From a virus, in the IMG/VR virus record IMGVR_UViG_3300007734_000646, positions 1-37,083 of that record: a stretch of 37,083 nt of DNA; one strand, written 5' to 3'. Of the stretch, positions 14,491 to 22,556 are shown one piece after another; position 1 is the stretch's first letter, and each line of letters opens with the position of its first letter. A model generated the notes under the pieces. The model had not been told where the DNA came from. It did no database searches and saw nothing but the letters and a program-made list of their open reading frames with translations. The position numbers and the translations under genes are program-made.

Positions 14491-14550
14491 ATGAGTAACT
14501 CCTGTGTGGTTAACTGGGGACACTTGGCGCAGTCCCCTTCTCGCATCTGA

Positions 14551-17860: not shown

Positions 17861-18399
17861 AGTGGTTGGCCTAGCTGGGTGAGGAGGAGCGTGATGGTTG
17901 CGCGGGAGAGATCGCGGAGGATATCGGTCTTCGCGGGGAGGATGACGAGTTCCGTGAGGGAGCTGCCGGGGCGAGCGAAGAGCGTGTCGGCGGCGAGTTC
18001 AACGCGATCCAGGTGCCCTTCGCCGAAGACTGCGTAGACTGCAGCAGAAGGGGAGGCGACGCCGAGAGTGCGGAACTCGAGGGGGAGCGTGGTGAGGCGA
18101 GACTCGTGCCACGCTCGCTTGGAAGTTGGTGCTACGTCCTGGCCAGTCCACCAGCTACCGCAGAGGGTCTCGGTGGCTTCGACTGGCATGGGAGGATCTT
18201 CTCGGACGAGCCGGCGAGAACCCGGCTGACCACGATGCAAGTACTCGGTGAAGTTACCAAGCAGCGCCTGGGTGTCGGAGTGGATGAGAGCGATACCGCG
18301 GGAGCGATACCAGCTGGAAGGAGCCGCTGCGGAAGCTGGCGTGGCTGCGCGAATCGCAGCGATAGCTTCGCTGAATAGATCGTCTAGGGAAGTTTCCAT
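17857..18399 (-). CDS. Unknown protein, first gene of the long leftward replication operon
   Basis: The product is 180 aa, with GAGGCTCA seven bases upstream of ATG. An acidic, Ala-rich N-terminal helix (TSLDDLFSEAIAAIRAATPA) is followed by a mixed domain with SSWYRSRGIALIHSDTQALL and a C-terminal helix rich in Leu and Thr. It is the first gene after the promoter at 18446-18474 and so heads the roughly 10-kb leftward transcript. First genes of such early operons often act on the host or on regulation. No motif supports a specific role. Confidence 0.75.
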   Translation of the reverse strand: METSLDDLFSEAIAAIRAATPASAAAPSSWYRSRGIALIHSDTQALLGNFTEYLHRGQPGSRRLVREDPPMPVEATETLCGSWWTGQDVAPTSKRAWHESRLTTLPLEFRTLGVASPSAAVYAVFGEGHLDRVELAADTLFARPGSSLTELVILPAKTDILRDLSRATITLLLTQLGQPL

Positions 18400-18445: not shown

Positions 18446-18474
18446 ATTAGACACGAACTTTTACCATTAGTTCC
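18446..18474 (-). promoter_or_regulatory. ECF/RpoE-like promoter, copy A
   Basis: Read leftward: GGAACT, 16 bases, GTCTAAT. It starts just after the stop codon of the 71-aa gene and points into the 18399-to-7877 replication operon. The extended -35 side reads CTGTGGAACT, as in copies C and D. Confidence 0.7.
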
Positions 18475-18874: not shown

Positions 18875-19501
18875 TTAGAACAGAGCCAGCTCAGCGTCTG
18901 CGTCAACCTTGGCGACTTTGGCCAGCTTGGCATCTTCCATGCGCTTGATGATGACGCCAGTCTTGGTTCCGGCCACGCGGAAGGAATCGTACAAGGCACG
19001 GCGGGTGAGTGCCGAGTCTGCGTCGAGTTTCTTTTGCAGGTAGGCCTTGACCGTCGCAACGTCTTTGCCGGTGGCCTCGCAGATCGCCTGGACTACGACA
19101 GAAGCGCCGGAGACGCCGCCGCCGGAGGCAGCACGACCAGCACCCCACTTGTTGGACTGGACGAGCGCGTTCAGGTCGTCAATGGCCAGCACCATATCGT
19201 CTTCGCTTAGGGGCTTGTTTGCTGACGTAGCGAGTTCATCGCCGAACTTCTGCTCTGCCCCATGCCCGGCAAAGCGAGCGAGGAGTGCCAGAGGCAGCGG
19301 GATTGTCCGAGTCTCCCCGTTGCGGAAGTCCATGCGAATGCTGACAGCGCCAGCAGTGATCTGCATAACACCGTCTTCGATAACGATGCCGCTGTCGTCG
19401 ACCAGCGTTTCTTTGTTCACTTTACGCTTGCCGGCGAAGGAGACCTTGCGTCCGTCAGTCATTGTAACTTCACTGTACTCTGTCTTGCTTTCTGTAGCCA
19501 T
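18875..19501 (-). CDS. Conserved phage protein of unknown function (208 aa)
   Basis: The start has GGAGAG five bases upstream. The N-terminal part contains SFAGKRKVNKETLVDD and SIRMDFRNGETRTIPLPL, the centre ARFAGHGAEQKFGDEL and SEDDMVLAIDDLNALV, then a Gly-rich hinge (about 125-135) and a helical C-terminus SGASVVVQAICEATGKDVAT ending in an acidic tail. I recognise this 'KvsFaGKRk...DFrNGetr...HGaeQKlGDe' protein from other phages, where it is conserved and unassigned. It is abundant-looking by position (early, own promoter region), perhaps regulatory or nucleic-acid binding. Confidence 0.85.
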   Translation of the reverse strand: MATESKTEYSEVTMTDGRKVSFAGKRKVNKETLVDDSGIVIEDGVMQITAGAVSIRMDFRNGETRTIPLPLALLARFAGHGAEQKFGDELATSANKPLSEDDMVLAIDDLNALVQSNKWGAGRAASGGGVSGASVVVQAICEATGKDVATVKAYLQKKLDADSALTRRALYDSFRVAGTKTGVIIKRMEDAKLAKVAKVDADAELALF

Positions 19502-19605
19502 TTTCTCTCTCCGATTACAGCAGTCCTTTGAGCCGGCGACTGCGGATTCCGGTAGCAGGGAGCCCCTACTGGGGAAGGGAGACGCGCTCCCCTCCGCGGT
19601 AAGGG

Positions 19606-19934: not shown

Positions 19935-20111
19935 CTAACCACGTTCCTGCTCACGCGGAAACTCCTTGCGCGCTGCTGCCCAGGCGTTGAGGTGAGCTGC
20001 CCGATCAGGAGGAATTCCTGACCAGAGCTTCCGGTACGCTGCGATGCGGGAGGAGTAAGCTGCCAGGACTTTCCTAGCCCAGGTTTGCTCTTGCTTGGGA
20101 GAGAGACTCAT
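19935..20111 (-). CDS. Small helical protein (58 aa)
   Basis: Starting at ATG 20111 the frame reads MSLSPKQEQTWARKVLAAYS ... WSGIPPDRAAHLNAWAAARK and ends with EFPREQERG. It is clearly protein-like, rich in Trp, Ala and Arg, and predicted as two or three helices. It overlaps the preceding small gene by 38 bases and has only a weak Shine-Dalgarno, so translation is probably coupled. I do not recognise the family. Confidence 0.6.
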   Translation of the reverse strand: MSLSPKQEQTWARKVLAAYSSRIAAYRKLWSGIPPDRAAHLNAWAAARKEFPREQERG

Positions 20112-20247
20112 AACCAGTAATATTTTTAGTTATCCAGCCATTGCACTCACTATCAGTGCCAATAAACATAGGTTTAACAGTACTGTAACTGTTAACAGGT
20201 CTAACAATGTAAGCGTTGCTAAACATACTCCAAATTACTTCAAACAT
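20074..20247 (-). CDS. Small unknown protein behind the pseudoknot leader
   Basis: The product is 57 aa. ATG 20247 has TTGGAAAG about five bases upstream. It begins MFEVIWSMFSNAYIVRPVNS and continues TVKPMFIGTDSECNGWITKN. Base composition is A+T-rich compared with neighbours. It is the first gene after promoter C, and its leader can form the pseudoknot described below. The coding call rests on the good start context and plausible sequence; no homologue is known to me. Confidence 0.55.
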   Translation of the reverse strand: MFEVIWSMFSNAYIVRPVNSYSTVKPMFIGTDSECNGWITKNITGYESLSQARANLG

Positions 20248-20263: not shown

Positions 20264-20296
20264 GATCTGCAAAGTCGGCGGCAGATCATTCGCCGA
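20264..20296 (-). ncRNA. Predicted H-type RNA pseudoknot in 5' leader
   Basis: In leftward RNA the order is TCGGCG (20296-20291), AAT, GATCTGC (20287-20281), CGCCGA (20280-20275), CTTT, GCAGATC (20270-20264). Stem 1 (6 bp) and stem 2 (7 bp) are both perfect and interlock as a-b-a'-b', with loops of 3, 0 and 4 bases, which are sterically suitable. It begins about five bases after the -10 box of promoter C and ends three bases before the ribosome binding site region of the 57-aa gene. A cis-regulatory role is inferred. Confidence 0.6.
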
Positions 20297-20334: not shown

Positions 20335-20688
20335 TTATTGCGACAGGATTATCCGCCCGGACTGCCCCTGCAGAACCTCCCCGGCGAAGCTTACCATAAT
20401 ATCCCTATCACACATCGCCAGCTCTGCCTCCGTCCAGCCTTGCTCCTTACAGTACGCAGTGCTGACTTGGTTGAACGTCTGACTAAGCACTCGCAGAGCA
20501 TCCATAGCCTCTCCGTCCTGCCGTGCCTGCGCTTTCCTCGCCAAGGTCGCTGTGGCCTCCGAGCACATCCCTGCTCCATACACTAGCGCGACCATTCGCC
20601 TCCCGTGCGTCTTCGCTGGGCCGCGAAGCGCCTTGGGCAGATCCTCCAGCCCTTCATGCTCGCTATCCGTTCCGTTAAGCTTACTCAT
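20335..20688 (-). CDS. Unknown early protein (117 aa)
   Basis: ATG 20688 is preferred over TTG 20691; AAGGAG lies seven to ten bases upstream, inside the end of the HTH gene. The sequence is mainly helical: LPKALRGPAKTHGRRMVALV, then AGMCSEATATLARKAQARQD and TFNQVSTAYCKEQGWTEAEL. It shares a transcript with the HTH regulator upstream, with the two frames overlapping. Its stop codon is followed at once by promoter C. No domain is recognised. Confidence 0.75.
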   Translation of the reverse strand: MSKLNGTDSEHEGLEDLPKALRGPAKTHGRRMVALVYGAGMCSEATATLARKAQARQDGEAMDALRVLSQTFNQVSTAYCKEQGWTEAELAMCDRDIMVSFAGEVLQGQSGRIILSQ

Positions 20689-21070
20689 CAAGTGGACTCC
20701 TTAGCAGTTCATACCGCGCTTGCGCTTCCGGGGACAACGCTGGTTTCGGCGGCGAAGCGCCTTCCCCGACCTTCGCAAGCATCCTTGCCAGACTCTCCTC
20801 TGCCCGTCGATCAAGATCCGGACGACTCTGCTCCCCTACTCCCAGCGTATTATTAAGCATCGCGTCAAACCTTGCTTCCTCTTGCCCCGCTGAACTCCCT
20901 TTCTTCCCATAAGCTGCACGTTTCTTCAGCACCCGCCAGACTGTCGCTTCACTCACCCCCAGCTGGGTCGCGATGTGCGCTGCACTCCACTTCGGCTCTC
21001 CCCATTCATCCAGCTGCTCCCTCATCCGATAAACTTCCCCGACCGCAGTCGGCGTTAGTACTCTTCCCAT
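20681..21070 (-). CDS. Helix-turn-helix DNA-binding protein
   Basis: The product is 129 aa. ATG 21070 has AAGGAG eight bases upstream. After an N-terminal helix (TAVGEVYRMREQL) comes WSAAHIATQLGVSEATVWRV, a resolvase/Hin-type helix-turn-helix with the recognition helix SEATVWRVL. A Gly/Lys linker and a Pro-rich helical C-terminus follow. It is the only clear HTH regulator in the leftward block and is driven by promoter D, so it is the best candidate for binding the palindromic sites in the window. It lacks the regions 2-4 layout of a sigma factor. Confidence 0.82.
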   Translation of the reverse strand: MGRVLTPTAVGEVYRMREQLDEWGEPKWSAAHIATQLGVSEATVWRVLKKRAAYGKKGSSAGQEEARFDAMLNNTLGVGEQSRPDLDRRAEESLARMLAKVGEGASPPKPALSPEAQARYELLRSPLDE

Positions 21071-21094
21071 AATCTCTACTCCTTTGTCCATTCA

Positions 21095-22527: not shown

Positions 22528-22556
22528 GGAACTTCGCGGAGAGTTAGCGGTCTAAC
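22528..22556 (+). promoter_or_regulatory. ECF/RpoE-like promoter, copy E
   Basis: GGAACT at 22528-22533, 16 bases, GTCTAAC at 22550-22556, pointing into the packaging and head genes. It is one of two rightward copies and the only apparent promoter for the 14-kb head and neck block. Confidence 0.7.

Follow-up and report, generated by a model that had tools for sequence, protein, structure and literature searches.

On the minus strand, positions 20264-20296 of a 37,083-base IMG/VR virus contig (the window, analysed over its whole length) encode a compact H-type pseudoknot that is almost certainly a real structure, and this phage genome has at least three such pseudoknot leaders, each just upstream of a Shine-Dalgarno (SD) sequence. 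One of the three precedes a gene whose product is, by predicted fold, an SSB-like protein. We hold it to be an even bet that the leader knots are translational operators resembling that of phage T4 gene 32, in which case protein binding and repression would both be expected by analogy.

Structure and conservation of the leader pseudoknot

Read 5' to 3' on the minus strand, the element is TCGGCG AAT GATCTGC CGCCGA CTTT GCAGATC; two perfect stems of 6 bp (S1, stem a) and 7 bp (S2, stem b) interlock in the order a-b-a'-b' around loops of three (AAT), zero and four (CTTT) nucleotides, exactly as a preliminary description of this DNA had it (Table 1). The SD lies outside the knot, in neither stem. 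An eighth pair extends S2, as U-A in close relatives and as U-G, which still pairs, in the window. A perfect 6+7-bp knot of the same geometry arose in 0 of 60 locally dinucleotide-shuffled windows, and 5+6-bp knots, of which the window contains four, averaged 0.45 in shuffles. The summed stacking energies (S1 -13.4, S2 -13.5 kcal/mol) and the single-hairpin predictions (S1 -8.9, S2 -7.8 kcal/mol) serve as a plausibility check only, because the pseudoknot penalty comes out of the difference between the two.

Table 1. Features of the window that bear on the leader pseudoknots
Feature	Positions	Strand	Details
OB-fold single-stranded-DNA-binding-like protein, 161 aa	14005..14490	-	AF2, Foldseek
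SSB-like leader knot	14516..14546	-	S2 GGGGAC 14537-14532/14521-14516; S1 GCG 14544-14542/14529-14527
p208 gene, conserved	18875..19501	-	function not assigned
p208 leader knot	19520..19552	-	S1 CCGG 19552-19549/19536-19533; S2 GCAGTC 19543-19538/19525-19520
57-aa ORF	20074..20247	-	behind leader
Segment without homology to L003-L005	20115..20263	-	starts exactly past knot 3' end
H-type pseudoknot	20264..20296	-	S1 TCGGCG 20296-20291/CGCCGA 20280-20275; S2 GATCTGC 20287-20281/GCAGATC 20270-20264
ECF/sigma-E-like promoter GGAACTTCGGCGGACAGTTCCGGTCTAA	20303..20330	-	motif, kept in relatives
118-aa gene p118	20335..20691	-	upstream; adjacency to leader conserved in relatives

Relatives were found with the phage DNA polymerase as query (63 loci), and in five related contigs, L002-L005 and L216, promoter and knot are nearly unchanged. 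The more divergent copies are those of L197, which reads CGGCG a TGAGTGGC / CGCCG acctt GCCACTCA and has the same kind of promoter and a homologous gene upstream, and of L192/L230, which reads CGGCG atg AGGGGC / CGCCG acctt GCCCCT and lies between two genes without an ECF-like promoter. An alignment of the locus made without regard to structure has 97.3% of its cells paired and shows two-sided change at three S2 pairs, with a covariation score of 0.219 against 0.072 in shuffles (0/500); slid versions give at most 57%. A pattern scan of viral and bacterial genome collections, with S1 and the 5' arm ends fixed and the 3' arm of S2 left almost free, points the same way, the S2 arms pairing over 8, 8, 8 and 6 bp in four relatives compared to at most 4 contiguous pairs in 55 chance matches. 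Compensation in homologous leaders, a point on which the preliminary description had said its claim should stand or fall, is found in S2, and by comparison of the aligned leaders this stem can be shown to be kept by it, through changes that amount to about two events. S1 hardly varies, five of its six pairs being invariant and the sixth lost in L197 and L192.

Searches of Rfam at gathering and at relaxed thresholds up to E 10 returned chance matches only and no credible one, and the preQ1-I covariance model matched none of the knot leaders. Annotated phages, searched at the DNA level with 2 kb around the 20264 site, gave no match, and no later phage case of such a leader pseudoknot was found in the literature searched. 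Rfam lacks the class, and that literature does not describe it.

Genes behind the leader

What follows the leader is a 35-aa basic ORF in L003-L005, a 102-aa gene in L002 and a 77-aa gene in L216, and in the window it is the 57-aa ORF; counting also a 33-aa ORF, four genes other than that of the window are found at this place in relatives. When the window is compared with L003-L005, homology ends at the last 3' base of the knot and returns at 20114, and in place of 20263-20115 the relatives have about 700 bp with three ORFs (small basic, FINIGS-type and zinc-finger-like). Because the genes behind it differ and homology breaks at the knot's 3' base, the leader is a module that is not private to the 57-aa gene, and the proposal that it specifically regulates that gene is not supported. 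The 57-aa ORF, which lies within the replacement segment, is AT-rich and of no known family; no homologues of its protein were found, and its SD, GGAAAG, is weak.

Further leader pseudoknots

Strict knots upstream of SD-preceded starts are 11 (distinct) in the related phages compared to 1.0 in shuffles, and none was found at 2423 starts of unrelated viral contigs or at 1337 starts of bacterial contigs. Inspection of the genes behind the scanned knots brought out two conserved families, the SSB-like one and p208. The SSB-like gene excepted, the copies judged real all have the 3' end of the knot 12-19 nt ahead of the start codon; over all copies the distance is 12-35 nt.

The AlphaFold2 model of the SSB-like protein has an OB-type fold (pLDDT 91.7), for which Foldseek returned the ssDNA-binding protein PrgE as closest match (E 1.3e-4) and gene V protein more weakly; there are also matches to DUF669 phage proteins, and those to the PHROG single-strand-binding families are weak. 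In the window's own leader of this family S1 has only 3 bp. Among the leaders of non-redundant homologues, 30 of 48 reach a score that is reached by 1% of shuffles; in some distant SSB-like leaders no knot was detectable. A held-out set from contigs new to the analysis gave 13 passing leaders among 19, compared to 0.3% of shuffles. The sub-alignment that includes the window has 94.5% of cells paired and five pairs changed on both sides. By eye, the SSB-like leaders of the more distant named phages MW202489, PP438425 and MF497422 have no clear knot.

Leaders of p208 homologues follow the motif xCGG AA.. [S2] G CCGx .. AAAG [S2']. An alignment by sequence alone of 15 of them, picked for the visible motif, has 90.7% of its cells paired; 8 of 10 pairs show two-sided change, and the covariation score is 0.518 against 0.173, with none of 500 shuffles as high. 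When all 30 candidate leaders are taken, a laxer score, attained also by 7.7% of shuffles, is reached by 21; for at least four of the rest the wrong start codon had been chosen. A knot in L023, at first counted as a separate and unrelated case, belongs to the leader of the p208 gene there. A fold search with the p208 model gave nothing significant. Written as TCGG-CGAAT-[S2]-CG-CCGA-CTTT-[S2'], the 20264 knot resembles the p208 motif with a longer S1, and a common origin of the two is possible.

Strong pseudoknot-like leaders, each seen once, were also noted at L198 +1572, L239 +2995, L025 +4579, L060 +3951 and L199 +334, 16-18 nt before the starts of other small genes. Two knot-like patterns in the window were set aside. 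The one at 18448 (AATCA/TGATT plus an 8-bp stem) has a first arm that runs into the promoter -10 and would be missing from the transcript, in which only a plain hairpin at 18441-18418 is left; the one at 18227 is inside the p180 coding region and was taken as chance or coding. The hairpin at 18441-18418 (minus strand), with a conserved TTAT...ATAA core (GCGGATTATGATTGTATAATCCGC), lies directly past the promoter of the 180-aa gene and is recognisable in distant phages, in the p180 leaders of L010, L015, L016, L025, L035, L048 and L052.

The promoter class

The promoter upstream of the knot is of the type GGAACTT-N-GTCTAA, its elements GGAACTT and GTC(T/A)AA being some 15-16 nt apart. The motif GGAACTW-N14-16-GTCTAA occurs at six sites in the window and at none in 100 shuffles, and it recurs upstream of genes in the relatives. 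We take it to be akin to ECF/sigma-E promoters, a likeness drawn from general knowledge of their consensus. The promoter reported earlier at this place is real, of an ECF/sigma-E-like type and not of the sigma-70 type for which the tool scans. Sigma-54 and sigma-70 readings were rejected, the spacing being wrong and the -10 containing an invariant C. No sigma factor was noticed in the window. With a start 6-8 nt past the -10, the knot at 20296-20264 begins at or beside the predicted +1.

The six sites are at 2093-2120 and 22528-22555 on the plus strand and at 18474-18447, 19909-19882, 20330-20303 and 21151-21124 on the minus strand; they are kept in relatives, and most carry an internal GAACT...AGTTC/AGTCC dyad. 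A broad scan for the dyad GGAACT-N-AGTTC returned mainly unrelated sites. The HTH protein p136 (20681-21091, minus strand), encoded behind its own copy of the promoter, is a candidate regulator of the class. It would be uncommon for phages to use host promoters of the ECF type as a class.

Proposed function

The 20264 element would be a folded RNA with which a phage transcript from the ECF/sigma-E-like promoter begins, and we infer that it acts at translation initiation, as a platform for the binding of a phage protein. The likeliest binder would be the SSB-like protein, or, for the leaders of the SSB-like gene and of p208, the product of the gene itself. Since the SD is not inside the knot, the free leader would be accessible to ribosomes; surplus protein may nucleate on the knot, spread over the adjacent SD or block it, and so repress translation, as in T4. 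Riboswitch, translational operator and exonuclease block had all been offered in the preliminary description, and the operator is the best guess among them because similar knots precede other genes, including an SSB-like one, as in T4.

In T4, binding of gp32 nucleates at a pseudoknot in the leader of its own mRNA and extends from there across the ribosome-binding site (PMC3014915, PMC535899). The operators of T4, T2 and RB69 gene 32 share with the present leaders a compact H-type pseudoknot (about 28 nt in T4) 5' of the SD and a relaxed RNA sequence with a kept structure (PMC535899, PMC3014915), and in the SSB-like copies the gene behind is, by fold, of the SSB type. There are also clear differences: the 57-aa ORF behind the 20264 knot is not an SSB gene and its place is taken by others in relatives; the T4 knot region lies about 67 nt upstream, whereas here the knot ends 12-35 nt before the start; the linkers here are short, mixed or C/A-rich and lack the UUAA(A)/UUAAA repeats of the A+U-rich T4 linker; and several unrelated genes of one genome bear knots. 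The likeness is one of architecture, claims no homology of sequence or protein, and leaves binding here as a presumption. A small H-type knot close to the SD is also found in preQ1-I riboswitches, which differ in their loop and stem proportions and in having a conserved ligand-binding core, while in the present leaders the SD is outside the fold. The knot of E. coli rpsO (S15) overlaps the ribosome-binding region, unlike here, where the SD is just outside the knot. That leader pseudoknot serves autogenous translational control (PMC3014915). By analogy, the leader knots would work like a known kind of element and are candidate members of it.

For the 20264 copy there is a serious rival, since the knot begins at the predicted +1: a 5' UTR module that needs no protein and serves any gene behind it, either as a 5'-end cap against 5'-end-dependent decay or as an insulator keeping the SD region open. 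It is a real, if distinctly lesser, possibility. The free swapping of the gene behind the leader fits it well, as do the plain hairpins, such as that at 18441-18418, with which other transcripts from promoters of the same class begin. However, a plain hairpin would suffice for such a role, and yet pseudoknot geometry is conserved; moreover, the knots of L192/L230, L199, p208 and the SSB-like genes are intergenic without such a promoter just upstream, the p208 leader of L023 being the exception.

Each stem is predicted to fold on its own (at the hairpin energies given above), and the two might form mutually exclusive hairpins, that is, a switch and not a simultaneous pseudoknot. We consider this unlikely: the loops are within pseudoknot limits in every copy (L2 0-2 nt), the SD is in neither stem, and S1 of the SSB-like and p208 leaders is often a helix of only 3-5 bp around 8-12 nt, which is too weak by itself and yet compensated.

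Inverted repeats in DNA can likewise show compensatory change, and with an HTH protein, p136, encoded nearby, overlapping repeats for a DNA-binding repressor downstream of the promoter might be imagined. The copies have no half-site sequence in common, however, and all keep the same orientation to SD and start codon and a constant position ahead of the SD. Among the SSB-like leaders, seven knots are gained when one G-U pair is tolerated (20 to 27) and one when an A-C is (20 to 21), a difference in favour of the sense RNA strand; in the small fixed alignments the same comparison gives 5 against 4 and does not discriminate. The DNA reading is thus very improbable. A preQ1-like small-molecule riboswitch of the pseudoknot type, of which a compact knot before the SD recalls the generally known translational layout, is scarcely credible, given that there is no Rfam match up to E 10 beyond chance, no invariant aptamer core among the copies, and no recognisably metabolic gene among the mutually unrelated ones behind them.

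Returning to the operator reading, we speculate, as a doubtful extension of it, that the knots form a regulon, in which a single phage protein, most probably that of the SSB-like gene, would read sequence-divergent knots before several replication and accessory genes and so tie their translation to free ssDNA, and the promoter and knot at 20330-20264 would be an exchangeable socket for acquired genes.

Implications

The arrangement was known before mainly from phage T4 gene 32; what is new is a phage group outside the T4 type in which leader pseudoknots with strong covariation precede genes of at least three families, the SSB-like one included. Should these knots be operators, dozens of natural variants would be at hand for testing whether SSB-type proteins recognise the shape of an RNA over its sequence, and pseudoknots would serve the phage as a common regulatory code, not as a single case.
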